Shown here: piece after piece, positions 3,901 through 24,159 of the stretch
Layout of the letters: the number at the start of each line of letters is the position of its first letter
Position numbering within the stretch: the stretch's first letter is position 1
Assembly (NCBI RefSeq): GCF_000763295.1
Contig: NZ_JRJE01000004.1
Span: 62,001-126,000, forward strand
Reading direction: 5' to 3'
Source: Thalassospira australica
GTDB taxonomy: Bacteria > Pseudomonadota > Alphaproteobacteria > Rhodospirillales > Thalassospiraceae
Length of the DNA stretch: 64,000 bases
Notes under the pieces: generated by a model
Database searches by the model: none
Seen by the model: the letters and a program-made list of their open reading frames with translations, nothing else
What the model was told of the DNA's origin: nothing
Position numbers and translations under genes: made by a program

Positions 3901-4493
3901 TGATCCAGAACGGTCCGGTGCGCGTTGCGGGTTGGAGCTTCGGCGGGTTGCTTGCCTATGAAGCAGGTTATCGCCTGTCACAGGCTGGGGTGGATGTGCG
4001 CAGCGTCACCCTGCTCGATGCGATTGCAGTTCCTGAATCTGTCCGTGAGATGCTGCGCAAGGACGAAGCAGAATATCTCGCAGATCTGTTTGGTGAATTG
4101 GGGATCGTCAAAGCCGAAGAATTGCGCCCTCTTACACCGGAGGAACGCATTGATTACCTGCTGACGAATGGCAAGGAATGCGATCTTCTGCCAAAGGATG
4201 CGGATCGTGGCACGATGCGCCGACTTCTTGCGGTGTTTCAGAACAACGCACTTGCGGCCGTTCACTACATGCCGCCGGAGATTGAAGACATTGATATCCT
4301 GCTTGTACGTCCGCAAACCATTGTGCGCGGAGCACCCTACATCGAAGGTGATGAATTTAGCGGCTGGCGCGCATTCACGGGTGACAATATTGAACTCGCC
4401 ATGGTTCCGGGCACCCATGGCACCATGATTTCCCAGCCACATATTCAAGAAGTGGCAAAGGCCATGCGCAAGCAGATCAAACGAACAATCTAA
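990..4493 (+). CDS. NRPS module A(MT)-T-TE with methyltransferase-interrupted adenylation domain
   Basis: This 1167-residue terminal NRPS module starts at ATG 990 behind AAAGGGA. The adenylation N-part has LKAGHPFVPLDP (core A2, about residue 98). The frame then enters a SAM-dependent methyltransferase with LEIGCASGF (motif I, about 225), ending near 410. Adenylation resumes at core A3, TSGTTGTPKG (about 448), then FAFDGS (A4), NAYGPTE (A5), YRSGD (A7) and NGKVDK (A10). A carrier domain has FFELGGHSV (Ser about 852). The C-terminal thioesterase has GWSFGG (Ser about 983) and a GTHG histidine near 1144. It should activate an amino acid, probably methylate it, accept the chain from the preceding condensation protein and release the product. 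A4 keeps the Asp that usually binds the alpha-amino group. The substrate cannot be called with confidence. Confidence 0.94.
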   Translation: MKIADFDFDSLETSLPEAAETPAAQLGSIIDAVADVVAKHPERIAIKDEAQDISYEVLDRESNRIANFIIGLNLPQDAMIGVMTGRNHFYISAILGILKAGHPFVPLDPATPLIRRIAIANNASIPLVLADAEHVGDLHQLQWRCDGVEHILCIDRENIDAISETPGSLMSVELWDHLAGDDADNVLAGGWKSAFTGQPIAQEAMDAFGANARNKIANLVSKDAHVLEIGCASGFTMKHVAPVVGKYVATDLSRRNVERTEELAIKSGMTHVMGRQLAAHDIDVFEEQSFDLIILNSVVENFPGFGYLRQVLNKAAKLLAPGGAIYLGNIWDADRKSDYLADLAKFAADNVGKGYDTRLDFLEDLFVPEAFLKDWAYGHGGFAVERTAINAPGFDPAPYTFDLVLSPDANIAPNKTLRYRHDLSDLVRSADGAPDKPSASSDVAYVLFTSGTTGTPKGVMIEHGSVVNLANSVLETQLKLISADDAKSCLNLTCVAPFAFDGSIVQIFASLLNGHSLHIPGTDTRSDPETLHDFIIEHEIDQLDATPSLFFLLLNHWYQSGQHCPAKMVVLGGEPVSSDLVERFFALPQHNSSILVNAYGPTECCVSTAQYVMTAQNHRQILPPPIGTAINGVQIRISDENSRTLPDGVPGEILIGGAGVARGYLNNPALTEQSFISDSDGSRWYRSGDIGRKRNDGEIVFVRREDGQVKVRGNRVELAEIETAICKHPLVRHATVILHKSGNQGSENLVAYLTTDDGFDVTTCRTQLEQALPAYMVPGYMICLDQMPLTSNGKVDKAKLPAPSGDLLVGSNKHSQKLETELEHQIAKIMGEVLDYTIDDANADFFELGGHSVLAVQFLSKLNQAVDIKIPLSDLFSCATVSKLANRVEMRKRDEKDKNPVVSVNTEGKGIPILCFHPVGGNILCYQDMSRELGSEQPVLMVESRGLQEGQGLNASVEDMVAAYMPFIREMIQNGPVRVAGWSFGGLLAYEAGYRLSQAGVDVRSVTLLDAIAVPESVREMLRKDEAEYLADLFGELGIVKAEELRPLTPEERIDYLLTNGKECDLLPKDADRGTMRRLLAVFQNNALAAVHYMPPEIEDIDILLVRPQTIVRGAPYIEGDEFSGWRAFTGDNIELAMVPGTHGTMISQPHIQEVAKAMRKQIKRTI

Positions 4494-4542: not shown

Positions 4543-4574
4543 GACCAGATGGTTTTACGACCATTCTGGTCTTT
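4543..4574. terminator. Bidirectional terminator between NRPS and PPTase genes
   Basis: GACCAGA with TGGT pairs with ACCA and TCTGGTC around a short loop, followed by a T-rich stretch on the plus strand. It sits between convergent genes and overlaps the last codons of the phosphopantetheinyl transferase gene. Confidence 0.6.
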
Positions 4575-5328
4575 CATTTTTGAAACGGGTCCTTGCCGGC
4601 AAGGTCATTGCCAACCAACCAGAACCGCCCGACCAAACGTACGTCTGATATTGCGCGAAGTTCCGGTATCCTAGCACATAGTGATCGACCTTGTGGGTGA
4701 TCTCTGACGGTGCATAGATATCAAGCGGTGTCATCATGCCTGTCGTAAGGGTCTTTGCCAAACTTTCGCGCGCGACCCAAAGCAGGCTGGCCGTGTCGCG
4801 CTTTGACAACCCAATCGTTGCGCACATTTCGCGTGTTTCGCGATCCAATCCGTCAAGAACCGGACTAACATCATCCTCAGAAGGCAGATCAACATCAATT
4901 CCCATCGGGTGCCCACGATGAAAAATCAACGCAGCTGCGAGCCTGTCTGAATGTGAAATCGATACACCAAGGTTCGAGACACTTGCCCCCGCTACATTCG
5001 ACAGAATTGGCTGTTCGAAGATTCCGCTTTCAATGCTAATCAGGCGTGGATCAATCTCAGACCGATGTGCTTGGAGTGCAATCTTTGCCGCCAAACGACC
5101 ATGTGTGTAGCTGTCCCTGCGCTGCGCGTGTTCAAAGCTGTCACGGCGCGTCAACTCACCTTCGTTAAGCAATTGACCAATAAGTGTTTCCCTTGCCTCA
5201 GGCGCCAAGTCATCAAGTTCAATGACAACCAATGTCGCGCTCAGGACATCACTCAGATCAAAGCTTCCTGATGCGCTATCACGAACCAATTCAAACGACT
5301 GAATTTTGATGGCGTCAGACAATCTCAC
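4555..5328 (-). CDS. 4'-phosphopantetheinyl transferase (Sfp/EntD superfamily)
   Basis: It transfers the phosphopantetheine arm of CoA to the carrier-domain serine, which is needed to activate the adjacent NRPS. Visible motifs are GRLAAKIAL (about residue 76), VSISHS (about 120), GIDVD (Mg-binding, about 144) and WVARESLAK (the W-x-x-KE-x-x-x-K region with R/S substitutions, about 185). I place the start at GTG 5328, with CGGAG at 5336-5340 seven bases upstream, giving 257 residues. An in-frame ATG at 5415 would put a 14-bp-stem terminator inside the coding sequence and add an unconvincing hydrophobic tail. It is convergent with the NRPS. The domain call is secure; the start is probable. Confidence 0.9.
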   Translation of the reverse strand: MRLSDAIKIQSFELVRDSASGSFDLSDVLSATLVVIELDDLAPEARETLIGQLLNEGELTRRDSFEHAQRRDSYTHGRLAAKIALQAHRSEIDPRLISIESGIFEQPILSNVAGASVSNLGVSISHSDRLAAALIFHRGHPMGIDVDLPSEDDVSPVLDGLDRETREMCATIGLSKRDTASLLWVARESLAKTLTTGMMTPLDIYAPSEITHKVDHYVLGYRNFAQYQTYVWSGGSGWLAMTLPARTRFKNERPEWS

Positions 5329-5369
5329 ATCACGGCTCCGTCTCAGCGGAATGACATCCAAACCGACAA

Positions 5370-5408
5370 ACAAAAAAAGAATGTCCAAGCATAGCTTGGA
5401 CATTCTTG
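5370..5408 (-). terminator. Rho-independent terminator of the 5443-6003 gene
   Basis: AAGAATGTCCAAGC pairs perfectly with GCTTGGACATTCTT around a 3-base loop. On the minus strand it is followed by a T-rich run. It lies 35 bp beyond the stop of the upstream minus-strand gene and argues that the PPTase reading frame starts after it. Confidence 0.8.
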
Positions 5409-5442
5409 AAAACATACGCAGTTATTGGATTTGAAAACCCAA

Positions 5443-6003
5443 TTACGCCTTGGCAGTTGCCGCAGCACCTGCAGGTTTGGCAGTGGTTTTGCCGCCTTTG
5501 ACATATTCAGAGGCCTTACGCTTCCCTTCTTCGAACTCTTCCTGGAATTTGCCGGAAGCTTCTTCTGCGTCGAAGTTTGCAACCGTACCGCCCTTGGCGA
5601 AGTGCCATGCGAAAACGCGACCCAGCGCGTAGGTGCAAGCAGCAGCAAAGGTCGGCATTGCAACCAGACCAAAGATCGTACCAACAACGGGAACACGACG
5701 GATCAGGTTTGCCGCAGCATAGCCAACACCAGTTGCCGGAAGTACCGTAGCGACCAAGGTCGAAATGGAATTCTTGATCGCGTTCTCGGAGAACGGCACG
5801 CCATAGGTGTCGCAAAGCTGTGCGAGCATGCGCAGCTGAATGGTGCTGCTGGTTGCCATTTCAAGGAACGGGATAGGAACCAAACCACCAATGGCAGCAT
5901 ATGCAGTGTGACGGTTAATGCTGCTATGCGCCTGAGCACGAAGCTCAGCAGTTTCTGCTACAGCAACTTCTTCAGTCTCTTCAACTTTTTCTGCTTCGCT
6001 CAT
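5443..6003 (-). CDS. DUF697/YcjF-like membrane-associated protein
   Basis: A 186-residue protein with an acidic N-terminus, then a glycine/alanine-rich hydrophobic core containing IGGLVPIPFLEMATSSTIQLRML, VPVVGTIFG and FAAACTYALGRVFAWHF. This layout is known from DUF697-type proteins with short re-entrant or membrane-associated hydrophobic segments. The C-terminus is charged and Lys/Ala-rich. The start at ATG 6003 follows AGAGG; an upstream in-frame ATG (6048) lacks a site. A clear paralogue lies at 7747-8253, and an SPFH protein lies between them on the same strand. No enzymatic motif is visible and the function is unknown; a role in membrane organisation is a guess from the neighbour. Confidence 0.75.
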   Translation of the reverse strand: MSEAEKVEETEEVAVAETAELRAQAHSSINRHTAYAAIGGLVPIPFLEMATSSTIQLRMLAQLCDTYGVPFSENAIKNSISTLVATVLPATGVGYAAANLIRRVPVVGTIFGLVAMPTFAAACTYALGRVFAWHFAKGGTVANFDAEEASGKFQEEFEEGKRKASEYVKGGKTTAKPAGAAATAKA

Positions 6004-6109
6004 AATTGCCTCTTTGCAATGTTCATTTTGCCGACAGGTCGCATACACAAAATTCTAGACTGCCAACACACTACCCCAACTTCCGGTTTATCGCAACAAA
6101 CAGAAGTTG

Positions 6110-7459
6110 TTATTGTTTTGTATCTGCCTTCATTTCCGGCACAGCAGCTGGCTCTCGACCGGCAGCTGATTCGGTTCTGACTGCACTGCTATCATATAGC
6201 GGCGCGATAGATTGCATCACCTTTTGCAACGTGCTTGGCGAGCCAGGTTGTTCATCACCGGATTGCGTTGCAGGCTTTACATCAGGTGTCGGCACGGAAC
6301 CTTGTTCTGCCCCACCCGGCTGGCTTGGTGACAAGGGGTTGGAGGACGAAGACGGTGACGCACTACTACCGGGTTCACGAATACCCGGTGAAATCGCATT
6401 TTGCGGTGAGATTTCAGCTGCACGTGCGTTCAGGTCATTGGCAGATGGCAAGGTGTTGGCCTGATCGCCAGTCAGTTCCGCACCTGAGGTATCAGAGGAC
6501 GACTGCGGCGCATCAGCCGTATTCAAGATAACTGGCAAGCCGTCCTTGCCACCAATGATGATGGTCTTGCTGTTTTTCGACGTGGCGAGCGACATGGTCG
6601 CTTCGATACCGCGCAGACGCAGATACTCTTCGGTGATGGTCTTCGCAACAATATCCTGAAACTCGCGAATACCCTCAGCCTCGATCTTTTTGCGCTGCTT
6701 TTCCTTTTCTTCACGCGCAAGGCGGAAGTCATATTCAAGCATCGCCTGATACTGTTCGGCTTTACGTTCAATGGCATCGGCAACCCGCTGCGGCAATTTG
6801 ACTGAGCGGATCAGCACGTCTTCAACCGTAACCAAACGTCCCTGGAAGCTCTGGTTTACCAACGAAGATCCAAGCTGGTTGACCATACGCTCAAGGATTT
6901 CGGCCTGAATGAATGCACGCGTTTCGGTATAGAGTTGTTCCGGGGTGTAGCGCGAAATCAGTTCACGGGCATGCGATCCTATTTCCGGGTAAACAAGGAT
7001 TTCCGGATAATTTGGCCCGACAAGCTTGTGCAACATACCTGCCGCATCGCGATTGATACGATAACGAACCGCGATGTCGACTTCCATCGACAGACCGTTG
7101 GAAGAGATCGTGTCATAGACGCGGGCCTGATTTTGCAGGCGGGCGTCATAGACAAACATTTTGTCCCAAGGGAAGATCATCTGCACACCTTCGCCGTAGG
7201 TATGCTCAACAACGGTCCCACCAAAGAAGCGGTACCACATCACGCCAACATGACCGGCCGGAATGGTAATAAAGATTTGCGGAGCGAGCGCAATCATCCC
7301 GATCAGAATAAAGAAGATCGTGATCAGGATTCCTGTTTGCGAGCGTTTGACAACCCGGTGCAGCCAGTTGATGAACCGATCGCGGAAGCCTGGCCGCCGC
7401 GCGTTTTCACCCTTGCCTCGTTCCGGACCGCTTGCTGACATTGTTGTGCCATCAACCAT
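6110..7459 (-). CDS. SPFH/Band 7 (prohibitin/HflC-like) membrane protein
   Basis: A 449-residue protein with one N-terminal membrane segment (about residues 42-65), then an SPFH domain from about 65 to 250 (IPAGHVGVMWYRFFGG, EVDIAVRYRIN, VYPEIGSHARELISRYTPEQLYT). A charged coiled-coil follows (FRLAREEKEKQRKKIEAEG, about 255-275). The last 120 residues are Ser/Pro/Gly-rich and look disordered. SPFH proteins oligomerise at membranes as scaffolds for microdomains or proteases. It is co-directional with a small membrane protein and two DUF697-like proteins, which suggests a membrane complex. No protease gene is next to it, so it is not a standard HflKC pair. Confidence 0.87.
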   Translation of the reverse strand: MVDGTTMSASGPERGKGENARRPGFRDRFINWLHRVVKRSQTGILITIFFILIGMIALAPQIFITIPAGHVGVMWYRFFGGTVVEHTYGEGVQMIFPWDKMFVYDARLQNQARVYDTISSNGLSMEVDIAVRYRINRDAAGMLHKLVGPNYPEILVYPEIGSHARELISRYTPEQLYTETRAFIQAEILERMVNQLGSSLVNQSFQGRLVTVEDVLIRSVKLPQRVADAIERKAEQYQAMLEYDFRLAREEKEKQRKKIEAEGIREFQDIVAKTITEEYLRLRGIEATMSLATSKNSKTIIIGGKDGLPVILNTADAPQSSSDTSGAELTGDQANTLPSANDLNARAAEISPQNAISPGIREPGSSASPSSSSNPLSPSQPGGAEQGSVPTPDVKPATQSGDEQPGSPSTLQKVMQSIAPLYDSSAVRTESAAGREPAAVPEMKADTKQ

Positions 7460-7746: not shown

Positions 7747-8253
7747 CTAAGCGACTTTTGCATCCTTAACGACCTTTAACCCGTCTTGGAATTCTTCCTT
7801 GAATTTGGGCTCGGCACGTTTCGGGTCGAAATTCTCCATTGTCCCACCTGCTTCATAATGCAGCTGAAACACCCGACCCAGCGCATAGGTGAAAGCAGCA
7901 TTGAAGCCAGGCATGGTCAGCACACTTAAAGTTGTTCCAACCACCGGAAGGGCTTTTGCCAGGCCCGAAAAGATACCCGTCGCTAGAAACGATTTTCCTA
8001 ACACCCCACCAGTGATGCTGGCCATCATGGTCGCGATGACTGCTTTGCCACTGCTTTTGCGGAAATCTACTTTATAGTGACTGCTCAATTCGGCTAGCAT
8101 TTTAAGCTGTACTGCAACGATTGCGGCCGAATCGAGAACGGGAATGGGGATCAATCCAGTGCCCGCAGCCCACATCGTATTGCGCATCACAATTCCCCGG
8201 GCCAGCCGGTCTCTTCTGTTGCGTTTGAGCTGGTCCAAGCGCGGACTATCCAT
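7747..8253 (-). CDS. DUF697/YcjF-like membrane-associated protein, paralogue of 5443-6003
   Basis: A 168-residue protein whose core aligns by eye with the 5443-6003 product: GLIPIPVLDSAAIVAVQLKMLAEL, LPVVGTTLSVLTMPGFNAAFTYALGRVFQLHYEAGGTMENFDPKRAEPKFKEEFQDG. The other protein has FAKGGTVANFDAEEASGKFQEEFEEG. The shared GGT-x-x-NFD and F-x-EEF tail indicates duplication. It is the first gene of the minus-strand cassette; a GGGGGGTGA tract precedes ATG 8253. The molecular role is unknown. Confidence 0.75.
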   Translation of the reverse strand: MDSPRLDQLKRNRRDRLARGIVMRNTMWAAGTGLIPIPVLDSAAIVAVQLKMLAELSSHYKVDFRKSSGKAVIATMMASITGGVLGKSFLATGIFSGLAKALPVVGTTLSVLTMPGFNAAFTYALGRVFQLHYEAGGTMENFDPKRAEPKFKEEFQDGLKVVKDAKVA

Positions 8254-8444: not shown

Positions 8445-9224
8445 TTGAGTCTGGCAACCAAGATCGGTGTTGCGCTGTTTCTGATACTCGCAGCCGCGCT
8501 GAGCATGACAACAACGCTCAATTACCTGCGCGTTGAGCAAACGCTTAGGACCCTTGTCTTTCAACAGATGAGTGTTGTGAGACATGAAACAAGTCAGGAT
8601 CTCCTGGCAGGGATTGATCTTGGCTTGCGTTTGGATAATTTCGAAAACCTTGAGGGGATTCTTGCCCGTCGTTTGCAAATGACACCCGAAGTCACTGGAA
8701 TTACCGTTCAGGACTGCAAAGGATCGGAAATTGCCCGGGCTACCTCAACGCAGCAACCAGATCCCACCCGCATTGATCGCAGTTCCGAGAGCTTCGGGCC
8801 GCGCACTCAATCATCCTGGACAAGCATTTCCGAAAAAGGTGCAGTTTCCCGCAGCATTTTGCACGACAGCCTGGGACAATGTGCCGGTCAATTGATCGTC
8901 ACCACAGACAGTAGCGACTATTTCCGGAAGCTTGATTTGGCCTTTATTGAGATGTGGAAGTCAGCCGGGTTTGGGATGCTTTTGATCATTCCCATAACGG
9001 GGCTTTTGATTATTTTGATGCGCCGCCGTCATCGCATTTTCGTCGAACTTCACCAAGACATAGATCGCGCCATGGCAGGTGAAACCACCGCACGCCAGAT
9101 CCACGACGAAGACGCCCTTACGGCAAGCGAAATTGAACTGATTTCCCTCTATCGCGAAATCCGCGACAAATTGCCCAAGGACGGCGTGGCGGGCCAGTCA
9201 TCTGATGCGGAGAAGTCGAAATGA
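8445..9224 (+). CDS. Membrane-anchored periplasmic sensor-like protein, first gene of an overlapping four-gene operon
   Basis: 259 residues: membrane segment about 5-26, a periplasmic region of about 140 residues (GLRLDNFENLEGILARRL, TPEVTGITVQDCKGSEIAR), a second membrane segment about 172-193, then a short cytoplasmic tail that looks like a degenerate HAMP. The periplasmic pattern resembles the extracellular sensors of bacterial receptors and recurs in the next gene. The start is TTG 8445 with AGGAG seven bases upstream; the nearby ATG at 8440 hits a stop after one codon. There is no output domain. The stop overlaps the next ATG (ATGA). It probably partners the downstream HAMP-MFS protein; this is an inference. 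Confidence 0.7.
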   Translation: MSLATKIGVALFLILAAALSMTTTLNYLRVEQTLRTLVFQQMSVVRHETSQDLLAGIDLGLRLDNFENLEGILARRLQMTPEVTGITVQDCKGSEIARATSTQQPDPTRIDRSSESFGPRTQSSWTSISEKGAVSRSILHDSLGQCAGQLIVTTDSSDYFRKLDLAFIEMWKSAGFGMLLIIPITGLLIILMRRRHRIFVELHQDIDRAMAGETTARQIHDEDALTASEIELISLYREIRDKLPKDGVAGQSSDAEKSK

Positions 9225-11212
9225 GCAATATCTCTGCATCGAAACACAAACGTCGACTGATGCCCAAAGGCACGATTTGGATCCTGCTTTTGTTTAGCAC
9301 AATCGCACTTTGCATTGCGCTGATCGGGATATCGTGGCGCGCAGCGGATTTGGTACGCGACGACCTGCAGGTCGAAATTCAGCAAAAGGCGGAAATACAA
9401 GCCAAGGCATTGGCTGAGAAAGTTGAACATGCGTTAGAGCTTGGCATCCCGCTTGATCGCATTGTCGGGTTTGAAGATGTCGTCGTTCAGCTACAGGAAG
9501 GTGATCCAGATCTGCAATTCGCCGCGATCCTGAATGGAACAGAACCGGTTCATACCGGCGGCGTAGCGGCCAGCACAATTAAGCAGGCCCTGTTTGAGGA
9601 GAATGGCCCCAAAACGCCTTCAACCATCATCACACGGATTGAGCTTAAAAGCGTTGCTGATCCTGATCCCAAGCAATCTGACTTTGCCATTGTGATCGGC
9701 CATGACCGCGCGGCACTGATGCGCCCGGTGACAGATAACCTGTTTGATATCGCGATCATTTTCATCATCACTCTCGCACTGTCATTTGAACTTGTCCTGT
9801 TTGTTCTGACGGTGAATGTCGCTTTGCCCGTCCGGGTCGCGCGCCGCGTTCTGACCAATGTGCAGCAGCACAAATTCACCATCCTGCATGGTCAGTCGAC
9901 CCGCGACGAGATCGGCAGTTTCATGGAACATATCAATTCCGTGATCAGTAAAACCGCTGCCAAGGTCGGCATTCAGCCGCAGAAAGAACGCGAAGTAAAA
10001 CTGATCGGTGTGCGGTTATTGGCCTTCATGTTCGTCCTGGCCGAAGAACTTGCGCGCCCGATCATGCCGTCCTTCTTCGGGCAGATCACGGCAAGCTCTA
10101 TCGATGGTCAGTTGGGTGCCGGGATCGTCATGGCGGTGCATCTTCTGATGGTCGCGATTGCCATGCCGCTTTGCAGCCTGTTTCAGGAACGCATCGGATC
10201 GCTTCGCATGTATCTATTCGGCGCATTTCTGGCGACTATTGGCCTTTGTGGGACAGCATTTGCCATGGGGCTCGCCGATTTGATCCTGTGGCGTGCCCTG
10301 TCGGGCATGGGATATGCGATCACGTTTGTGGCCTGTCAGTCCTATGTGCTTGATGCAACCAATGACGGCAACAGGACGCAGGGCACTGCGATGATGGTCA
10401 GTGGAATTATGCTTGCCGATATTTGTGGCCCGGCGATTGGTGGTATTTTCGCAAGCCATTTTGGCGAAGCGGTGACCTTTATCGCCGGTGGCGTTGTTGC
10501 ATGCGTTGCTGTCGCATTGGCCTTCTTCCTGATGGACAATATGGTGCGTGGCAAAACACCACCGCCCGTGCCGACCAAACATGCCTTGAAGGCAATGCTG
10601 TCCAATCGACGGTTACAGGTCCTGATCCTGTTTGCTGCCGTGCCGGCCAAACTGATCCTAAGCGGTTTTCTGTTTTACCTGACCCCGTTAATCCTGTTGC
10701 AGTCGGGTGCAACCACCGCAGAAACCGGGCGCGTGATTATGCTCTATGGGTTGGTCGCCCTTTTGACCGGTTGGGGCATAGCACGGTGGACAGATAGCAA
10801 GCAGAATGAAATCCGCGCCGTTGGCATCGGTGGCGCACTTACTGCCATCGGTCTTCTGTTTGCAGGTTTCATGCCGCAATATGCCAGCTTTGCTGTGGCG
10901 GTTGCTCTGTTGGGTTTGGCACAGGCTACGTCGATCCCGGCACAGGTTTCAGCCAGCCTGAAAATTGCCGCTGACTTCACCGAGGAACATGGTACAGGTC
11001 CGGTTCTGGCCGTGTTGCGACTGGCCGAACGATTGGGAGGGGCATTGGGTCCCCTTCTTGCGGCAAGCTTGACGCTGTCGCTTGGCCTGGAACAAGCCGT
11101 TCTGGTGTTTGGTGCGATTGCCGCTGTTTGCGTGATTTGCTTTGAACTTCTGATCGGGCATGTGCCCACAGACCAGAAGGCACAAACCAGTAAGTCGGAG
11201 GACGGACAATGA
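9221..11212 (+). CDS. Sensor-HAMP-MFS fusion: major facilitator transporter with N-terminal receptor module
   Basis: 663 residues. Residues 17-39 form a membrane helix. Residues 40-165 form a periplasmic domain (ALELGIPLDRIVGFEDVVVQL) that resembles the product of the gene before it. Helix 170-196 is followed by a HAMP-like linker (about 196-250, LPVRVARRVLTNVQQHKF, STRDEIGSFMEHINSV). From about 258 to 650 there is a standard MFS fold of about 12 helices, with a mid-loop after LAFFLMDN and arginine-containing loops. MFS proteins move small solutes using ion gradients. A receptor and HAMP unit normally drives kinases or chemoreceptors, so this fusion suggests a ligand-gated transporter or a transceptor. 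Both junctions are 4-bp overlaps. Confidence 0.82.
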   Translation: MSNISASKHKRRLMPKGTIWILLLFSTIALCIALIGISWRAADLVRDDLQVEIQQKAEIQAKALAEKVEHALELGIPLDRIVGFEDVVVQLQEGDPDLQFAAILNGTEPVHTGGVAASTIKQALFEENGPKTPSTIITRIELKSVADPDPKQSDFAIVIGHDRAALMRPVTDNLFDIAIIFIITLALSFELVLFVLTVNVALPVRVARRVLTNVQQHKFTILHGQSTRDEIGSFMEHINSVISKTAAKVGIQPQKEREVKLIGVRLLAFMFVLAEELARPIMPSFFGQITASSIDGQLGAGIVMAVHLLMVAIAMPLCSLFQERIGSLRMYLFGAFLATIGLCGTAFAMGLADLILWRALSGMGYAITFVACQSYVLDATNDGNRTQGTAMMVSGIMLADICGPAIGGIFASHFGEAVTFIAGGVVACVAVALAFFLMDNMVRGKTPPPVPTKHALKAMLSNRRLQVLILFAAVPAKLILSGFLFYLTPLILLQSGATTAETGRVIMLYGLVALLTGWGIARWTDSKQNEIRAVGIGGALTAIGLLFAGFMPQYASFAVAVALLGLAQATSIPAQVSASLKIAADFTEEHGTGPVLAVLRLAERLGGALGPLLAASLTLSLGLEQAVLVFGAIAAVCVICFELLIGHVPTDQKAQTSKSEDGQ

Positions 11213-12222
11213 TAAGGTTGTTCAGCACCCTCTGCCTTATGATTACCCTCACCATTTGTACGATCAATGTTCCGGGGATCGCGTCGGCAAGTGCACAGGA
11301 AGCAAAATCGCTTAAGATCGCGATGATTTTGTGGCGTGGTGAAACACGTGTTGAAGATGGATTTCGCGCCTATTTCGCGGACCGCGATATCCCGGTTGAC
11401 TTGCAGATATTTGATATTGGTCGCGACCTTGAACGCATCCCCGACATCATTTCTGAAATTCGTAAAGATCCACCAGATCTGGTTTACACATGGGGAACAG
11501 GTGTGACATCGCGAGTGGCGGGCAAATATGATCAGGTTGATCCGGCGCAAAACATTACAGATCTGCCCGTTGTGTTTGTCATGGTATCCTCGCCTTGGAA
11601 AACCAGCATTGCGGCACCCGCTGGACAAACCCGCCCTAATGTTACCGGGGCTACCCATATTGCACCGCTTCCGGCCCAAATCCAGGCTATTCGCGCCTAT
11701 CGCCCCTTGACAAAGCTGGGCGTGGTTTACAACAGCCAAGAGGATAACTCGATTTCCAACGTCGAAGACCTTCAGGCGTTGGGGGCCGAAATGGGGTTTG
11801 AAGTCCTGACCGCCCCGCTTGGACAGGCGGAAGATCCATCACCGGACGACATTGGACCTGCAGTAAGCGATTTGGCCAAGCGCGGTGCTGATATCCTTTA
11901 TATCGGTCCGGATAACTTTATCGGCACCTATCGCGATGTACTAACCGAGGCAGGATTCACAAATGGATTGGCGGCCTTTAGCGCTACGGAGCTTGAAGTC
12001 CGCGACGGGCAAGCCATGTTGGGCCTTGTAAGCCGCTATGAACTGGTTGGACGCCTTGCCGCCAGCAAGGTTGAAAGCATCCTTTTGGATGGTGTTTCAC
12101 CGTCTAATATCCCGATTGAAACGCTGGAACGCTTTTCCTATCTGATCAATTTTGCCTCTGCGCGCAAACTTGAAATGTATCCGCCCCTGTCACTGCTTGA
12201 TTATGCAGAAATCATCAAATGA
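11209..12222 (+). CDS. TrpX-like ABC substrate-binding protein (ABC_sub_bind family)
   Basis: 337 residues with a signal peptide ending around SASAQE. The mature part has the two-lobe periplasmic binding fold of the TrpX/PF04392 type: LKIAMILWRGETRVEDGFRAYF, PDLVYTWGTGVTSRVAGKY, NVTGATHIAPLPAQIQAIRAY, KLGVVYNSQEDNS, LYIGPDNFIGTYRDVLTEAGF. Members often bind aromatic or other small ligands. No ABC permease or ATPase is encoded beside it; the nearest partners are the receptor-like proteins immediately upstream. It may therefore deliver ligand to their periplasmic domains. Its ATG overlaps the upstream stop by 4 bp. Confidence 0.85.
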   Translation: MIRLFSTLCLMITLTICTINVPGIASASAQEAKSLKIAMILWRGETRVEDGFRAYFADRDIPVDLQIFDIGRDLERIPDIISEIRKDPPDLVYTWGTGVTSRVAGKYDQVDPAQNITDLPVVFVMVSSPWKTSIAAPAGQTRPNVTGATHIAPLPAQIQAIRAYRPLTKLGVVYNSQEDNSISNVEDLQALGAEMGFEVLTAPLGQAEDPSPDDIGPAVSDLAKRGADILYIGPDNFIGTYRDVLTEAGFTNGLAAFSATELEVRDGQAMLGLVSRYELVGRLAASKVESILLDGVSPSNIPIETLERFSYLINFASARKLEMYPPLSLLDYAEIIK

Positions 12223-12884
12223 CCAACATCACGCGCCTTGATGAAGGCCACCTTGATGCAATCATTGAGTTGCATCACGCCGTGATTTCCGATGCCGACC
12301 CCACACTTGTCGCATCTGAAACCGATGCGTTTTTCAAAGACCACTTGGCCGATTGCGGCAAAACGTTCGGGATATTGGAAAACGGCCGTTTATTGGCCTA
12401 TTGCGTGCTTGGTCTGCCACGCCCGGGTGATCCGAATTTCGGAACGGATCACGGGCTTGCCGATGCCGACCTTCCGTTCGTGGCCCACATTGACGGCGTC
12501 GCTGTCAAAGCAGAGTGCCGTGGCCATAACTGGCAACAAATATTGACACGCCACCGGATGCAAGAAGCCATCAAAGTCGGTCGAAAACTGCTCCTGACCA
12601 CGGTCGCACCGGGCAATAGCGCAAGCCTGATCAACATTCTGGCTTGTGGTTTGGTTGTTCGGCAGCTGAAGGAAAAATATGGTGGGCAGCGTTTCTTGAT
12701 GCGCGCAGACCTAACCTCGGCCCCGATAATTTACCCGCGTGCTGATGTGATAGCATGGTGCCGGGCAACTGATTTTGAAACGTGTCACAGGCACCTGGCC
12801 GCAGGGTTGATTGGCGCAACATATCGCAAAGCGCCTGGCACAAAGACCATTGAAATCGGCTGGATTCCCGATTACCGCATATAG
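12219..12884 (+). CDS. GNAT-family N-acetyltransferase
   Basis: 221 residues. The fold is suggested by the N-terminal ITRLDEGHLDAIIELHHAVI, the strand FGILENGRLLAYCVLGLPR, the core HIDGVAVKAECRGHNWQQILTRHRMQEA (acetyl-CoA-binding position, with a degenerate glycine pattern), and LLTTVAPGNSASLINILACGLVV. GNAT enzymes transfer an acyl group from acyl-CoA to an amine. It is the last gene of the operon, overlaps the stop of the binding-protein gene by 4 bp, and overlaps the convergent TAXI gene by 13 bp at its 3' end. It may modify the compound sensed or transported by the operon; the acceptor is unknown. Confidence 0.75.
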   Translation: MTNITRLDEGHLDAIIELHHAVISDADPTLVASETDAFFKDHLADCGKTFGILENGRLLAYCVLGLPRPGDPNFGTDHGLADADLPFVAHIDGVAVKAECRGHNWQQILTRHRMQEAIKVGRKLLLTTVAPGNSASLINILACGLVVRQLKEKYGGQRFLMRADLTSAPIIYPRADVIAWCRATDFETCHRHLAAGLIGATYRKAPGTKTIEIGWIPDYRI

Positions 12885-14218
12885 GTATAGGACGGTTTTG
12901 AGCCGACGCTATCCTTTGAAGGATCTTTATAGAGTTCCTGCCAGTCACAGGCATGCATGTCGGTTTCCCAATAGCACGCCGCCCCTTTATGAAAGGGCAG
13001 GAAATTGCCTTTGCCAAACATGTCTTTGGCAACCACGCTGCTGAAAGTCGGGAACTCGGTTTTCAGCTTCTCAATATTTTCGTAGATGATACGCGCGACC
13101 CAGTAAACCACATACGGATCAGCAGCTTCATAGGCCATTAATGATGCCTTGAAGCCATATGATTCCAAAGCCTGTTCCTGCCCACTATAGGTTTTGGCCG
13201 GAAGCACCTGATCGAAGAAGTATCGATTGGCTTTGACCAGTTCCTGGGTCAACGGACCGCCCATACCGACCACCTTGGCGTCGCAATTCATGCTTTCTTC
13301 AATCAAGGTTGCCGGGTGACCGATCCAAAGACCGAATGCATCAATATAGTCTTCGCAAATGCCAAGCTGGTTATAGTCCTGTGCCACACTATAGACGGTA
13401 TCCATGTCTTCAAGCTTAAGACCATATTGCCCAAGAAGTTCCATCCACAATTCGCGCGATGCAGACCCTTCCGGCCCGATATTGATCCGCTTGCCCTTAA
13501 GGTCGGCGATGCTGTTGATGTCTGAATCCTTGCTGACAACCAAAAGACCCATTTCATCATGCAGCGACATGACCGAACGCGCCCCGACGATCGGGTTTAC
13601 ACCAGCCTGCGCCTCCCAGTTGTTGTTCGACTGAACAATCATCAACTGAACTCGGCCTTCTTTCATCAATTCTATGTTACTACCAACCCCCTGGGACCGT
13701 AGGGGTACGCAATGAACGCGATGACGGTTATAGCTTTCGCGCATCATGTCGCAGATCTTTGCCGCCACCTGAAAATACACACCACTCGTACTGCCGCTGT
13801 AGATCGCCGCGTAAAAGGACTGCTCATGCGTACCGTCTCCCATGATTTCCGTCGCGTTACTAAAGGCAACAAGACTATCCGGGTCCTTGGTTTTGCGGCG
13901 ATATTGCGAAAGCGGGATGGCATCGGGCTTATAGATCAGGCCATCAACCATATCGGGATTATTCTTGTGGGGTTGGAGCTTATCGGCATCATATTGGTCG
14001 ACATCAAAGGTCTTAGCCTGATTATCCAAGCTAACCTCCTGATCACCGGTTGGTGCAACAATTGACTGTGCGCTTTGCTCCGCCACCGGTGGGTTTGCCG
14101 ATGCATCTTGCGCATGGGCAGCAAAAGATCCCCCGCCTGCGAACCACAGTGAGACCATCAACCACCGAATTGGCTTAACGGAGCCGCCCATAAGCAATTT
14201 CAAGATCAACTCTACCAC
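12872..14218 (-). CDS. TAXI-family TRAP solute-binding protein (orphan)
   Basis: 448 residues with an N-terminal signal (WLMVSLWFAGGGSFAAHAQ). The TAXI signature is clear: YAAIYSGSTSGVYFQVAAKICDMM, VHCVPLRSQGVGSNIELMKEGRVQLMIVQSN, then LKGKRINIGPEGSASRELWMELL. TAXI proteins capture solutes, such as dicarboxylates, for fused DctQM-type permeases. No TRAP membrane gene lies nearby. An extra region of about 95 residues sits between the signal and the domain. It is convergent with the four-gene operon with a 13-bp overlap and divergent from the diaminopropionate lyase gene. An orphan capture or sensing role is possible. Confidence 0.88.
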   Translation of the reverse strand: MVELILKLLMGGSVKPIRWLMVSLWFAGGGSFAAHAQDASANPPVAEQSAQSIVAPTGDQEVSLDNQAKTFDVDQYDADKLQPHKNNPDMVDGLIYKPDAIPLSQYRRKTKDPDSLVAFSNATEIMGDGTHEQSFYAAIYSGSTSGVYFQVAAKICDMMRESYNRHRVHCVPLRSQGVGSNIELMKEGRVQLMIVQSNNNWEAQAGVNPIVGARSVMSLHDEMGLLVVSKDSDINSIADLKGKRINIGPEGSASRELWMELLGQYGLKLEDMDTVYSVAQDYNQLGICEDYIDAFGLWIGHPATLIEESMNCDAKVVGMGGPLTQELVKANRYFFDQVLPAKTYSGQEQALESYGFKASLMAYEAADPYVVYWVARIIYENIEKLKTEFPTFSSVVAKDMFGKGNFLPFHKGAACYWETDMHACDWQELYKDPSKDSVGSKPSYTYMR

Positions 14219-14346: not shown

Positions 14347-15486
14347 TTGACCGGTTGTAGCCTGCCAACCATAACCACACGTAATAATCGTTTCGCCCTT
14401 CCGGAGCCGATGGTGGCCAGTTTAAACAGCTTTGTCCCAAGTCGTGATGAAATCTATCATGCTGCAAGCCTGATTGCATCATGGCCCGACTATTGTCAAA
14501 GCCCGCTTATGCCCTGCCCGGGCCTGGCGCGGGAATTGGGCATTGGCGCAGTATGGGTAAAGGATGAAAGCAAACGGTTTGGTCTTGGCGGGGTCAAGGC
14601 GCTTGGCGCGCCCTATGGCCTGAAGCAACAGCTTTTAAAACTTGGCATTGAGCCGGGATCACCCGAATGCCGCAACTATGTGGCTGTCGCGGCAACAGAC
14701 GGCAATCATGGTCTTGCCACCGCATGGGCCGCAAAAAAGTTCAATTGTCAGGCACGGATCTATGTCGGAAGCGACGTCGACCCGGCCCGTATGCGCCGTA
14801 TCCGCGATAATGGTGCAGAACTGGTGGAAATTGATGGCACCTATGATGATGCGGTCATGGCCGCCAGCAAAGCAGCCGAAGCAGACAACATCCTTCTGAT
14901 CACGGATACCGACTATGATGGCACGCTTGATGTCACCCGCGACATCATGGCGGGTTACGCAATGTTGGGATTGGAATGCGCCCAACAGTTGCGCGAACAA
15001 AAAGGCGAAATCGACAACATCTTCCTGCAATGCGGGGTTGGCGGTATGGCCGCAGGTTGCGCCGTTGGCATGTGGCATGAAAGCGGTAACAAGCCGACCG
15101 TATTTACCGTCGAGCCAGATGCTGCCGCCTGTGTGAAAGCAAGCATTGAAACCGATGTCCTGACCAAGGTGCCTGGTAAGCTTTTAACACGGATGGTGGG
15201 ACTTTCCTGCGGATGCCCCAGCCTGACTGCATTTGAAATTCTGCGCGATGTCAGTGCTGGCAACATCGTGATTGATGACACAATCGCCAAACACGTTCAG
15301 GACCGGCTTGTTGCCGGTGTGCGAAACGATCCACCGCTTGATACCTGGGACACCGGCATTTCAGGCATTGCCGGGCTTTGGCATGTTGCGAAAACCCCAA
15401 AATTGCGCAGCCAGTTTGGTCTGACGGAACATAGCCGTGTTCTTGTGATCAATAGCGAAGGCGCGATCCCGGAAAAATATCTTTAA
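14347..15486 (+). CDS. dpaL: Diaminopropionate ammonia-lyase-like PLP enzyme
   Basis: 379 residues of fold type II PLP enzyme. WVKDESKRFGLGGVKALGAPYGL has the PLP-binding lysine (about residue 83); ATDGNHGLATAWAA and LQCGVGGMAAG (phosphate clamp) follow. The family converts 2,3-diaminopropionate to pyruvate and ammonia. The start is uncertain. TTG 14347 keeps NNRFALPEP, which aligns with the DNKFF region of E. coli DpaL. ATG 14410 is the first ATG but would drop that segment. It lies 100 bp before the peptide-exporter genes on the same strand. It may recycle a diaminopropionate building block or serve general catabolism. Confidence 0.82.
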   Translation: MTGCSLPTITTRNNRFALPEPMVASLNSFVPSRDEIYHAASLIASWPDYCQSPLMPCPGLARELGIGAVWVKDESKRFGLGGVKALGAPYGLKQQLLKLGIEPGSPECRNYVAVAATDGNHGLATAWAAKKFNCQARIYVGSDVDPARMRRIRDNGAELVEIDGTYDDAVMAASKAAEADNILLITDTDYDGTLDVTRDIMAGYAMLGLECAQQLREQKGEIDNIFLQCGVGGMAAGCAVGMWHESGNKPTVFTVEPDAAACVKASIETDVLTKVPGKLLTRMVGLSCGCPSLTAFEILRDVSAGNIVIDDTIAKHVQDRLVAGVRNDPPLDTWDTGISGIAGLWHVAKTPKLRSQFGLTEHSRVLVINSEGAIPEKYL

Positions 15487-15588: not shown

Positions 15589-17238
15589 ATGAAGTTGCTG
15601 GAATTGTTATCTTGGGGTGATAACAAGCTTGCTACCCGACTTATCCTCGCCGGTGCGCTTTCCGGCGTTGGGAGTGCAGCACTTCTTGGCCTTGTAAACA
15701 CTGCCGCCGAAGAGATCGCCGATAACGGCATTGATCGCGTCAACTGGCTTCTGGCTGGCATCTTTATCGCGCTTTCGATCATCTATTTCCTGGCCGAGGT
15801 CTATCTTAACAGCACCATTGCCAAACAGATCGAAGCGGGAATCGACAAGGTCCGTAAAAAGCTTTTGTCTCAGATCGCTGTTGCCGACTTCGCCCAACTT
15901 GAAAGCTTTGGACAAACACGCCTGTTTGAAACCATCACCCAAAGCACACAGATCATTTCCCAAAATTCACACCTGATTGGCATGTCCTTCAGAAGCATTT
16001 TGCTGCTGATTGCCGTCATGGCCTATGTCTTCTGGATATCGATGCTGGCCTTCTGCATCATCGTGGTCGTCGTCGGCAGCGGGATCGTCATTTACCTGCG
16101 CATGGGCAAGACACTTGCCATGTGGTTTGGCAAGCTGCATCAGGTTGAAAGCATCCTGTTTAGCAAGGTCGCCGACCTGTTTGCCGGCATCAAGGAAGTG
16201 CGCATGTGGTCGCGCAGAAGCGACGCCTTCAAGGTCGCCTTCATCGATGCATCGGAAAACAAGGCCGAAATCGGCACGAACGCGCAAGCGATGATTTCGC
16301 GTCAGATGATCATGGGGATAACCGCGTTCTATATTCTGCTGGCCATCATTGTGTTCATCGTCCCGGTCTATTCCGACAGCATCGACACCGACGTTGCCAA
16401 GATCAGTACAGCAGTGCTTTTCATGATCGGTCCGATCAGCGTGATCGTGCAATCCATGTCTGTCCTGGGCATGGCCGAACAATCCGCTAACCGGATGATG
16501 GAACTGTCCAAGGACCTTGAAGCGATCTGCGAACCGATTGCCGATGAAGGCATGACGTTTGAGGACAAATTTGATCAGGTCACCTTTGATGATGTGTCCT
16601 TTACCTATCCCAACCGCGATCCGCGCCACGGCTTTGCTTTGGGACCGATCAGCTTGACGGTCAAACGTGGTGAATTGCTGTTCATCACCGGGGGAAATGG
16701 GGCGGGTAAATCAACCCTGATAAAGCTGCTCACCGGACTTTATCAGCCGACCGCAGGCAAAATACGGATCAACAATATCCAGCTTGGCCCGCAAAGCCTG
16801 TCGGCCTATCGCAATCTGATCGCAACCGTGTTTTCAGATTCCCACCTGTTTGACGAATTGTTTGGCACCGATGAAATCACCGATGAGCATGCCAGATACT
16901 GGATCGAAAGGTTTGAGCTATCGCACGTGACCGGTATTCGCGATGACAAGTTCATCACCATTGCCCTGTCGGCGGGTCAACGCAAACGACTGGCGCTGAT
17001 TACGGCCATTCTTGAAAACCGTCCGATCATTGTTCTGGATGAATGGGCCGCAGATCAGGACCCCTATTTCCGTAAGAAGTTCTATCACGAGATTTTGCCA
17101 GAGCTTAAAAAGCGTGGCACGACCATCATCGCCGTGACCCATGATGATCATTATTTCGAAGTCGCTGATCGCCGCCTTCATCTTGAAACGGGCAAGCTGA
17201 CCGAACTTGCCCTTGATGACCCACGTGGGAGACTTTGA
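15589..17238 (+). CDS. Cyclic-peptide-type ABC exporter, fused membrane and ATPase domains (subunit 1)
   Basis: 549 residues. Six predicted helices occupy about 1-300. The ATPase has Walker A GGNGAGKST (about 367), signature LSAGQRKRLAL (about 460), Walker B IIVLDEWAADQDP (about 481) and an H-loop in VTHDDH (about 516). The LDEWAADQDP form and overall length are typical of the SyrD/PvdE group of NRPS-product exporters. These pump peptides or siderophore precursors from the cytoplasm across the inner membrane. It is immediately followed by a second, similar half-transporter, so a heterodimer is likely. It is the natural export route for the NRPS product encoded at the left edge. Confidence 0.9.
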   Translation: MKLLELLSWGDNKLATRLILAGALSGVGSAALLGLVNTAAEEIADNGIDRVNWLLAGIFIALSIIYFLAEVYLNSTIAKQIEAGIDKVRKKLLSQIAVADFAQLESFGQTRLFETITQSTQIISQNSHLIGMSFRSILLLIAVMAYVFWISMLAFCIIVVVVGSGIVIYLRMGKTLAMWFGKLHQVESILFSKVADLFAGIKEVRMWSRRSDAFKVAFIDASENKAEIGTNAQAMISRQMIMGITAFYILLAIIVFIVPVYSDSIDTDVAKISTAVLFMIGPISVIVQSMSVLGMAEQSANRMMELSKDLEAICEPIADEGMTFEDKFDQVTFDDVSFTYPNRDPRHGFALGPISLTVKRGELLFITGGNGAGKSTLIKLLTGLYQPTAGKIRINNIQLGPQSLSAYRNLIATVFSDSHLFDELFGTDEITDEHARYWIERFELSHVTGIRDDKFITIALSAGQRKRLALITAILENRPIIVLDEWAADQDPYFRKKFYHEILPELKKRGTTIIAVTHDDHYFEVADRRLHLETGKLTELALDDPRGRL

Positions 17239-17239
17239 A

Positions 17240-18901
17240 ATGTTGTCGCTGAACATTCTTCGCACTCAGGCAAAGATCAATCTGCGCACGGTTGTTGCTC
17301 TTCTGACCATGGCTGCGGTTTCGACCACTATGGTCCTGATCATCGTTAACATGGCGTCTGAGCAAGCTGAAAACAATGAAGTCAGTGCCCACCTTATGGC
17401 GTTGATGGCGCTATCCCTCATCGGATTCATCTGGGCACAGCACAAGGCTGATACCATTGTCTCGGTCGAGGTCGAACGCATCCTGCATGAATTCCGATTG
17501 TCTCTGTTTGACAAGGTCGGCAAGGCTTCGCCTGAAACGCTGGATACCGTCGGTGAAGGCCCGATTCAGGCCGCGATGACCCAGGAAATGCAAACTATTT
17601 CCAACACGCTGCCAATGCTGATGAACGGCATACAGCAGCTGGTCCTGATCCTATTTGTCAGTTTGTATCTGGCCTATCTGTCGCTGTTTGCCTTTGCCAT
17701 GATTGGTGTCTTGGCCGCTCTTGCGGTCACCATCCACGTTTACCGTATCAAGAAGGTCAATATCGCGATCCGCGAAGCCGCCGAAGATGAAGGCAAACTG
17801 TTTGGCGGGCTGAGTGATCTGCTGCATGGCTTCAAGGAAGTGAAGATGAACAATCTTCGCCGGGATGCCCTGCTTTTGCATTTGCATGAGCGGTCTGAAC
17901 GGACCCGTGACACAAAGGCAGAAATCAAACAGCAATGGAGCCGCGAAACAGCATCTGTCCAGCTGGCGTTTTATTGCATGATGGCGGCAATGGTCTTTAT
18001 CGTGCCGATCTTTACATCCGACTATCATGACGTTGCGGTTCAAACGACAACCGCGACCTTGTTCCTGTTTGGCCCGATTGGCTCGACCATTATGACCTTG
18101 CCAAGCTTCAACGACACCGAAGCAGCTCTGGCAAAGATCACCAGCCTTAAGGAACAACTGAGCGCGGAACTCAGCAAACAGGATGAAAAGGCCGCCACCG
18201 CTGACAGCCTAACGCAGCCTGTGGGCTCCGATACCGCCACCACCACACCACTAGCCCGCATCGATGCAATCACGATGAAGGATGTTCGGTTTACCTATCC
18301 CGGACCAACGGGTGGTTTTTCCGTTGGCCCCTTGAATGCCACCTTCAGGAAAGGTGAGATTACCTTTATCACCGGAGGCAATGGCGCGGGTAAATCGACC
18401 ATGATTTCGCTGCTAACAGGTCTTCGCGCCTTTGACAGCGGTGAGATCAGAGTGAATGGTGAAGTCCTGCGACCATCGCAGTTTCAGGATTACCGGGACC
18501 AGTTCGCGTCGGTCTTGTCGGGGTATCATTTGTTTGATGAACTATATGGCATCGATCCAATTGATACCGACCAGGTTAATGACTTCCTCAGACTGCTTGA
18601 AATTTCTGACAAGGTCACCCTTGATGGCAACAAATTCTCGACCACGTCCCTGTCACAGGGGCAGCGCAAACGCCTGGCACTTGTCAGCGCCCTTCTCGAA
18701 GACAAGTCGGTTCTTGTTCTTGATGAATGGGCCGCAGATCAGGACCCACATTTCCGGTCGGTCTTCTACGAGAAGCTTCTGCCTATGCTACGTGATCAGG
18801 GCAAAACACTGATTTGCGTGACACATGATGACCGCTGGTTTGATGTTGCAGACCGAATTTATCACGTGCGTGACGGACAGTTTGACGAAGCCAACGCCTA
18901 A
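17240..18901 (+). CDS. Cyclic-peptide-type ABC exporter, fused membrane and ATPase domains (subunit 2)
   Basis: 553 residues from ATG 17240, which follows GGGAG and lies one base after the stop of subunit 1. An upstream in-frame ATG at 17207 lies inside the previous gene and is less likely. Six helices precede an ATPase with GGNGAGKST (about 379), LSQGQRKRLALV (about 470) and VLVLDEWAADQDPHF (about 490). A linker of about 40 residues rich in Ala/Thr/Asp sits between the halves (SKQDEKAATADSLTQP), which subunit 1 lacks. Both subunits keep catalytic motifs, so both sites may hydrolyse ATP. The 3' end overlaps the convergent thioesterase gene by 4 bp. Confidence 0.9.
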   Translation: MLSLNILRTQAKINLRTVVALLTMAAVSTTMVLIIVNMASEQAENNEVSAHLMALMALSLIGFIWAQHKADTIVSVEVERILHEFRLSLFDKVGKASPETLDTVGEGPIQAAMTQEMQTISNTLPMLMNGIQQLVLILFVSLYLAYLSLFAFAMIGVLAALAVTIHVYRIKKVNIAIREAAEDEGKLFGGLSDLLHGFKEVKMNNLRRDALLLHLHERSERTRDTKAEIKQQWSRETASVQLAFYCMMAAMVFIVPIFTSDYHDVAVQTTTATLFLFGPIGSTIMTLPSFNDTEAALAKITSLKEQLSAELSKQDEKAATADSLTQPVGSDTATTTPLARIDAITMKDVRFTYPGPTGGFSVGPLNATFRKGEITFITGGNGAGKSTMISLLTGLRAFDSGEIRVNGEVLRPSQFQDYRDQFASVLSGYHLFDELYGIDPIDTDQVNDFLRLLEISDKVTLDGNKFSTTSLSQGQRKRLALVSALLEDKSVLVLDEWAADQDPHFRSVFYEKLLPMLRDQGKTLICVTHDDRWFDVADRIYHVRDGQFDEANA

Positions 18902-22806: not shown

Positions 22807-24159
22807 TTGCTGCGCAAGATCGACGCGGTGATTGACTTCAGTTTCATCCATGACCGGGTTGCGCATTTATATTGCGCCGATAACGGTCGGCCGGCGCTTG
22901 ATCCGGTGATGTTGTTCAAGATGCTGTTTATCGGCTATCTGTTTGGCATTCGCTCCGAACGGCAATTGATACGCGAGATCGCGGTCAATGTGGCTTATCG
23001 CTGGTTTTTGCATCTTCGCCTGACCGACAAGGTGCCCGATGCCAGCACGATCAGTCAGAACCGGCGGCGACGGTTCAATGACAGTGACATCTGTCAGGAA
23101 ATTTTTGACGAGATTGTTGAACAGGCGATCCGGGCAGGACTTGTTGATGGCACGGTTCTTTATAGCGACAGCACCCATCTTAAGGCCAATGCCAACAAGA
23201 ACCGGTTCGACCGCCAGGTGGTCGAGAAGTCACGTGCGGACTACCTTGCCGCCCTTGATGCCGATGTTGCACAGGATCGCGCCGATCATGGCAAGAAACC
23301 GCTCAAGGAAAAGGAGCACCATCCCGTTGCCAAAGAGACTAAGGTCAGCCGCACCGATGCCGATAGCGGCTATATGGTGCGCGATGGCAAGCCCAAGGGG
23401 TTTTTCTATCTCGATCACCGAACTGTGGACAGCGCGCATGCCCTGATCACCGATATCCATGTCACGCCGGGCAATGTGCATGACAGCATTCCCTATCTGT
23501 CGCGCCTTGACCGGCAGCGTGATCGGTTCGGCTTTGATGTGTGTGCGGTTGGTCTGGATGCAGGCTATGCCACGGCTGGCATCGCCAAGGGACTGAAAGA
23601 CAGGGAGATTGAGGGGGTGATTGGCTATCGCCGCCCGACCCATCGCCAAGGATATCTGCGCAAGAAAGATTTTGAATATCTGCCCGGGCTTGATGGCTAT
23701 CGATGTCCGCAAGGGGAAATCCTCAAATACAGCACCACCAACAGATCCGGATACCGGGAATATAAAAGCAAGCCTACGGTTTGCAGAACCTGTCCACTGC
23801 GCGATGCCTGTACCCAAAGCCACAATCACACCAAGGTCGTCACGCGCCATATCAGGCAGGAGAGCCTTGAGAAGATCAAAGCCAACCGGCTCAGCCCGTG
23901 GGGTAAGCGGATTTATGAGCGTCGCAAGGAAACCGTCGAGCGCAGTTTTGCTGACGCCAAACAACTGCATGGCCATCGCTATGCCCGCATGCGGGGCCTG
24001 CGCAAAGTACGCGAGCAGTGCCTTCTTGCGGCTGCCGCCCAGAACATCAAGAAGATCGCCCTGATCCTGACGCGCAAAGGGGCTTTTTGTGACGTTATTT
24101 TAGCGGTAATCGCAATTATTGCCATCAGACCCCGGTTCTGGCGGGTATCATTCGCATAA
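22807..24159 (+). CDS. IS1182-family DDE transposase, N-terminus probably frameshifted
   Basis: 450 residues in the open frame, beginning LLRKIDAVIDFSFI. LDPVMLFKMLFIGYLFGIRSERQLIREI is the N-terminal helical domain. DGTVLYSDSTHLKANANKN holds the first catalytic Asp; AVGLDAGYATAG holds the second; RIYERRKETVERSFADAKQLHGHRYARMRGL holds the Glu. A Cys-rich insert (CPQGE, VCRTCPLRDAC) is typical of the family. The expected beginning (M-L-K-K-K-T-S-H-Q-E-E-L-E-M-V) is present at 22754 but in another frame. Only TTG 22807 can start the long frame, so a short deletion near 22795 has probably separated start and body. Confidence 0.88.
   Translation: MLRKIDAVIDFSFIHDRVAHLYCADNGRPALDPVMLFKMLFIGYLFGIRSERQLIREIAVNVAYRWFLHLRLTDKVPDASTISQNRRRRFNDSDICQEIFDEIVEQAIRAGLVDGTVLYSDSTHLKANANKNRFDRQVVEKSRADYLAALDADVAQDRADHGKKPLKEKEHHPVAKETKVSRTDADSGYMVRDGKPKGFFYLDHRTVDSAHALITDIHVTPGNVHDSIPYLSRLDRQRDRFGFDVCAVGLDAGYATAGIAKGLKDREIEGVIGYRRPTHRQGYLRKKDFEYLPGLDGYRCPQGEILKYSTTNRSGYREYKSKPTVCRTCPLRDACTQSHNHTKVVTRHIRQESLEKIKANRLSPWGKRIYERRKETVERSFADAKQLHGHRYARMRGLRKVREQCLLAAAAQNIKKIALILTRKGAFCDVILAVIAIIAIRPRFWRVSFA

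Follow-up and report, generated by a model that had tools for sequence, protein, structure and literature searches.

The 64,000-nucleotide stretch of Thalassospira australica analyzed here (the window; positions 62,001–126,000 of contig NZ_JRJE01000004.1) carries at 8445–12884 an operon of four genes, A–D, that is a SpoIIE-less variant of a widespread, uncharacterized sensing module. The core of this module is a triad composed of a Cache-fold sensor (A), a protein that joins a sensor and a HAMP-like segment to a DHA1-like major facilitator superfamily (MFS) transporter (B), and an orphan PF04392 protein (C). The initial annotation had described a four-gene system. The system is not an isolated one: of 66 loci of other kinds (a hand-picked spread of about one or two per genus, drawn from part of the order and class matches), 37 have a SpoIIE gene at most 7 kb away, and the signaling component that is missing here thus exists in relatives. 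The explanation of the whole to which we give evenly balanced confidence is that of an envelope-sensing, possibly also transporting, front end that is wired to a partner switch in many relatives and tied to a peptide-export locus in the window.

The four genes, all visible as open reading frames (ORFs) on one strand, are as follows.

8445–9224, forward strand: gene A, 259 residues from a TTG start, a membrane sensor.
9221–11212, forward strand: gene B, 663 residues, with a sensor, a HAMP-like segment, and an MFS domain.
11209–12222, forward strand: gene C, 337 residues, a periplasmic binding protein of PF04392.
12219–12884, forward strand: gene D, 221 residues, a divergent GNAT-like protein.

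Each of the three junctions, A/B, B/C, and C/D, is a 4-bp ATGA stop–start overlap, as initially annotated. A Pfam scan of the four proteins returns no match for A, MFS_1 for B, ABC_sub_bind (PF04392) for C, and a weak Acetyltransf_1 for D; the same scan finds no kinase, cyclase, or ATP-binding cassette (ABC) permease domain in any of them, which bears out the unusual composition first claimed for the operon. Promoter and terminator scans gave results at chance level. By B, the closest named relative is Thalassospira sp. HF15, at 99% identity in that protein.

Gene A encodes two transmembrane (TM) segments that flank a periplasmic domain of the Cache/PAS fold, followed by a short cytoplasmic tail. 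Protein B starts with an N-terminal sensor, continues through a HAMP-like segment (residues ∼195–250), and ends in a DHA1-type MFS domain (residues ∼255–650), an assignment supported by both the 12-TM fold and the sequence. The nearest folds to this MFS half are amine and drug antiporters (VMAT2, SotB, and NorA). The sensors of A and B are homologous (hhalign 98.9), and in some relatives A and B are fused, in agreement with the proposal that the operon encodes two similar sensors. The HAMP label given to B has support from profile–profile comparison only: the segment aligns with the HAMP domain of the relatives' SpoIIE proteins (hhalign probability 96) and has no match to Pfam PF00672. Protein A shows weak similarity to the HAMP profile (hhalign 17), and neither A nor B contains a known output domain in Pfam or NCBIfam.

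The assignment of C to PF04392 comes from Pfam (E = 2.9e-19), and its profile matches the structures 6hni, 3lkv, and 3lft. Its likeness to TrpX, the name used in the initial annotation, is distant, as C scores 82.4 bits on the NCBIfam TrpX model, below the equivalog threshold of 390; the family stands and the closer kinship does not. A TrpXYZ importer was rejected on this score. There is no ABC permease or ATPase partner for C among the four operon genes, and no permease among its neighbors in the window, where the nearby ABC genes are of the exporter type; the claim that C lacks a permease is therefore correct.

The operon is well preserved within the genus. B is present in 17 of 29 Thalassospira genomes, of which 15, including our own, have the window-type locus and two (G006 and G007) have another locus; the genomes with C are these 17 and no others. 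The order and strand of A-B-C-D are kept in all 14 other window-type loci, and a gap of −4 is observed at A/B in 13 of these (−11 in the other), at B/C in all 14, and at C/D in 13 (−1 in the other). The conserved order and the co-occurrence of B and C thus run opposite to the scattered neighborhoods that the initial annotation had named as evidence against its proposal.

Beyond the genus, a B profile finds matches in 75 of the 317 order genomes, in 24 of 385 at the class level, and in 9 of 398 at the phylum level (E up to 1e-60), as well as in 19 of 299 genomes of a second family, f71 (E up to 1e-40); these counts are lower bounds, as at most three candidates were scored per genome (four in f71). 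Among the 66 loci of other kinds, A is found upstream in 55, C in 57, and D within 5 kb in 17; HATPase and STAS genes accompany 26 and 25, respectively, and 26 of the 37 SpoIIE-bearing loci also have one or the other. Two further loci, L044 and L045, fall under the 200-bit cut and outside this set. The −4 overlap recurs at 32 of 55 A/B and 33 of 50 B/C scorable junctions. Fusion of A to B, recognized by at least four TM segments before the MFS domain, is seen in seven of the 11 loci among the 66 that have no separate A, as well as in L044 and in nine of the 14 loci fetched from f71. In these 14, C is always present, SpoIIE is present in ten, alanine racemase is present in four, and two loci (L235 and L241) sit beside SctR/T/U.

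The relatives also differ in what surrounds them. The two Thalassospira genomes with the alternative locus, G006 and G007, carry D-C-A-B-SpoIIE (L042 and L043) beside HATPase_c_2 and type III export genes, with SctU at 417 and 413 bits (cut-off 358) and FlhB below its own cut-off. Type VI genes (Hcp, VipA, VasE, or VgrG type) surround L115, L116, L118, L119, L145, and L169; seven of the 66 loci are flagged in this way, the seventh, L157, more weakly through an AAA/Clp-type protein only. In L153, C is followed by an ECF sigma factor and an SseC-family gene (Pfam), the latter without an NCBIfam match, and L171 is labeled type III in the tree only by its likeness to L153. Locus L117 has the order HATPase-STAS-A-B-C-A′-B′-SpoIIE. 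Such a second pair, A′-B′, directly precedes SpoIIE in L117, L153, L158, L162, L163, L174, and L234–L243; in L117 and L153, the two that were scanned, B′ matches nothing in Pfam, and an MFS domain is thus not recognized.

The absence of the switch from the window form is consistent across its sister loci. SpoIIE (within 7 kb), HATPase, and STAS genes are near the operon in none of the 14; for the window itself, the STAS and HATPase_c_2 result is taken from L175, a near-identical locus. SpoIIE occurs in all 29 Thalassospira genomes but is rare in them, with one or two copies each; our genome has one, a HATPase-receiver-SpoIIE protein encoded on contig C29 (the window is on C4). A dedicated partner SpoIIE elsewhere in the genome was rejected, as this sole copy is on another contig and of the type found in 29 of 29 genomes. 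Type VI secretion was likewise rejected as a local output, with TssB absent from our genome, where no search for type III secretion was made, and present in four of the 29 Thalassospira genomes.

In a tree of 73 B proteins, which has an arbitrary root and several long branches, the 17 loci of the window clade fall on one side of a branch with support 100, and the clade joins L128, L147, and L145 with support 99. L128 and L147 are A-B-C-D-SpoIIE loci in which SpoIIE was confirmed by Pfam; L147 also has a diaminopropionate-lyase-like gene that is run on into other sequence. Because the window clade joins these SpoIIE-bearing loci, an ancestor that had SpoIIE and a later loss in the window lineage, as opposed to a lineage that never gained it, is plausible.

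The fourth gene is the variable member of the module. D reaches Pfam Acetyltransf_1 at 20.8 bits, against a cut-off of 20.7, and its profile matches the GNAT structures 3dr6 and 2bl1; the protein initially labeled a GNAT is a divergent, GNAT-like one at the edge of the Pfam family. In the acetyl-CoA motif, R101-G102 is invariant in nine of nine sequences and residue 104, the next motif position, is variable. Near the triad and on its strand, D is found in 16 of the 66 other loci, a formyltransferase in 13, a PanB-like enzyme in five, and a second GNAT type in four; two of these four types never occur together on the strand (0/66), and an ATP-grasp gene is the sole enzyme in one. In other loci it is the formyltransferase or the PanB-like enzyme that occupies the place of D, and 14 of 15 formyltransferases retain the Asn-x-His motif. 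In some loci, D has an alanine racemase or ATP-grasp gene beside it. As the exchangeable enzymes are all acyl- or one-carbon transferases, their exchange suggests that the module meets molecules modified at such groups. The formyltransferase-like ORFs of L133, L129, L135, L141, and L173 have a cysteine-rich C-terminal tail with three adjacent cysteines.

The genes that flank the operon in the window are the following.

990–4493, forward strand: nonribosomal peptide synthetase (NRPS)-like protein (Pfam adenylation domain with an inserted methyltransferase, carrier, and thioesterase).
5443–6048, reverse strand: DUF697 protein (Pfam), divergent from A.
6110–7459, reverse strand: putative Band7/SPFH-like protein, divergent from A.
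7747–8253, reverse strand: DUF697 protein (Pfam), divergent from A.
12872–14218, reverse strand: TAXI-type solute-binding protein (NCBIfam TRAP_TAXI, 172 bits), convergent with D and overlapping its 3′ end.
14347–15486, forward strand: diaminopropionate ammonia-lyase-like enzyme of the pyridoxal phosphate type (NF006058, 284.8 bits, cut-off 276).
15589–17238 and 17207–18901, forward strand: two ABC exporters of the cyclic-peptide type (TIGR01194, 323 and 309 bits, cut-off 286).

The paired exporters start 2.7 kb past D, outside the operon. All 14 other window-type loci share Band7, at least one DUF697, TAXI, the diaminopropionate lyase, and both ABC exporters, with the exporter pair on the opposite strand in one (L037). 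The NRPS-like gene is found in 12 of the 15 window-type genomes and in one genome without the operon. The same neighborhood also occurs in another family (L038 and L152), and of it Band7 and an NRPS-type gene were the only parts seen in L151, and a divergent, fused A-B version, L146, has Band7, DUF697, an ABC exporter, and a formyltransferase.

The NRPS-like protein is a single module without a condensation domain by Pfam, which also gives a weak match to a phosphopantetheinyl transferase for 4555–5415. The TAXI gene has no adjoining TRAP membrane subunit; another TAXI gene directly follows C in L164, where Secretin/LysM and pentapeptide-repeat proteins are encoded downstream of A-B-C-TAXI (L164:1998–4990). 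Downstream of the window cluster, the ORF at 22807–24159 looks by eye like a transposase.

From the anatomy of the operon and its neighbors, we infer a mechanism in which the ligand class, the physical contacts, the flow of the signal, the transport step, and the substrate of D are all conjectural. C would bind a small periplasmic molecule, most likely amino-acid- or amine-like, and either the loaded protein or the free ligand would then be sensed by A and B, whose Cache domains would act jointly. The MFS half of B would be coupled to this sensing, whether as a carrier that takes the molecule across the membrane or as a second receptor resembling a transporter, and in the cytoplasm D may modify the molecule or a precursor of it. 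In many relatives, the neighboring SpoIIE protein probably reads the state of A-B-C and acts on a STAS/HATPase partner switch, the output of which would in some cases lie at loci for type III or type VI secretion. In the window lineage, where the phosphatase is absent, the front end would be tied instead to the cluster of Band7, DUF697, TAXI, diaminopropionate lyase, and paired ABC exporters, often with an NRPS-like gene.

Several observations weigh against this explanation. Our genome's only SpoIIE is of the genus-wide type and on another contig, so the window operon has no evident output. Among the 66 other loci, 29 have no SpoIIE within 7 kb (some through contig ends), nine have no match to C, and in 27 the strand carries no enzyme of the types searched for. 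D may be non-catalytic, judging from its degenerate cofactor motif. The Cache domains alone could bind the ligand, which would make the role of C indirect, and both structural models are of middling confidence (pLDDT 68).

A bolder reading, which we regard as possible but doubtful, is that A-B-C constitutes a new class of binding-protein-dependent MFS transceptor, in which C would pass its ligand on to a pair of Cache sensors, that of A and the one joined to the MFS carrier in B. Transport and signaling would then be coupled in one complex with exchangeable enzymes and exchangeable outputs: a SpoIIE switch, type III or type VI secretion, or, in the window, peptide export.

That the genes form a plain transport operon is unlikely. 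B would here be an exporter or importer, the sensors would regulate B only, C would scavenge, D would detoxify or modify the solute, and there would be no signaling output. Such an operon agrees with the typical DHA1-like fold of the MFS half near VMAT2, SotB, and NorA, with the lack of a known output domain in A and B and of a SpoIIE gene nearby in the window, and with neighbors that are exporters and a catabolic-type lyase; it leaves unexplained why SpoIIE is so frequent beside the other loci and why some loci lie inside secretion clusters.

We consider it improbable that the operon serves a self-made signal. In such a loop, a diffusible molecule produced or capped by D, the formyltransferase, or the PanB-like enzyme would leave the cell through B, C and the Cache domains would detect it when it comes back, and export or secretion genes would respond to the readout. 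The exchangeable one-carbon and acyl transferases beside the same triad, the retained Asn-x-His motif, the MFS half nearest to exporters, and the alanine racemase or ATP-grasp genes beside D would all fit such a loop; the loci without a searched enzyme and a possibly non-catalytic D do not. Chance co-location of general sensor, transporter, and enzyme genes is very improbable and was rejected, for although every part comes from a large superfamily, the order (14/14) and the −4 overlaps are kept, also over deep divergence, A and B can be fused, and B and C occur in the same 17 genomes.

Compared with known systems, the operon shares with TrpXYZ-type ABC importers a binding protein of the PF04392 family and differs from them in having no ABC permease or ATPase. 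TRAP and TTT systems are binding-protein-dependent secondary transporters built on DctQM and TctAB, respectively, and are similar in that a binding protein is encoded with a secondary transporter; the transporter in the window is instead an MFS protein with sensor domains. We know of no example of a binding-protein-dependent MFS system, which is what the operon would represent if C does serve B. In transceptors of the UhpC type, an MFS protein acts as a receptor and works with a histidine kinase. B could similarly be a receptor instead of a carrier, but there is no kinase domain in A–D by Pfam, and B has a Cache-like sensor of its own.

The relatives of the operon carry the SpoIIE, STAS, and HATPase_c_2 genes characteristic of RsbU/RsbV/RsbW partner switching, whereas the window operon has none of these, and sensing would proceed through separate membrane proteins and a binding protein. 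The closest resemblance is to the btr locus of Bordetella, which, as tabulated in the review PMC7498569 (Table 3), comprises BtrV (STAS), BtrW (kinase), alr, BtrO (MFS), BtrU (SpoIIE), BtrN ("ABC transporter"), BtrM, BtrA, and BtrS. The functions of BtrO and BtrN are listed there as unknown, and BtrU, BtrV, and BtrW are described as needed for type III secretion (PMC7498569 and PMC8256260). This review was the only source on BtrO and BtrN that turned up in the open-licence literature; the available part of PMC12088040 makes no mention of MFS. The likeness, one of gene content only, lies in MFS and ABC-type genes beside a SpoIIE partner switch and an alanine racemase, and is seen in the f71 loci L234, L237, L238, and L240, which consist of fused A-B, C, D, alanine racemase, A′, B′, and SpoIIE. 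By gene content and not by sequence comparison, the family looks like the front end of btr-type loci. The window differs in that SpoIIE, STAS, and HATPase partners are absent and no secretion system lies close by. The operon is at most a functional analog of a btr front end and, by the tests made, not itself a partner-switch locus. The initial statement that no named system has this composition must accordingly be qualified, as the btr locus overlaps in gene content. The finding is thus less unprecedented than first thought, yet more than an isolated odd operon. Genes of the BtrO/BtrN type, candidate inputs to SpoIIE partner switches at secretion loci, here gain a recurring, recognizable context of sensor, sensor-MFS protein, binding protein, and interchangeable enzymes, of which the version in Thalassospira, not a pathogen, offers a front end that can be studied apart from any secretion system.

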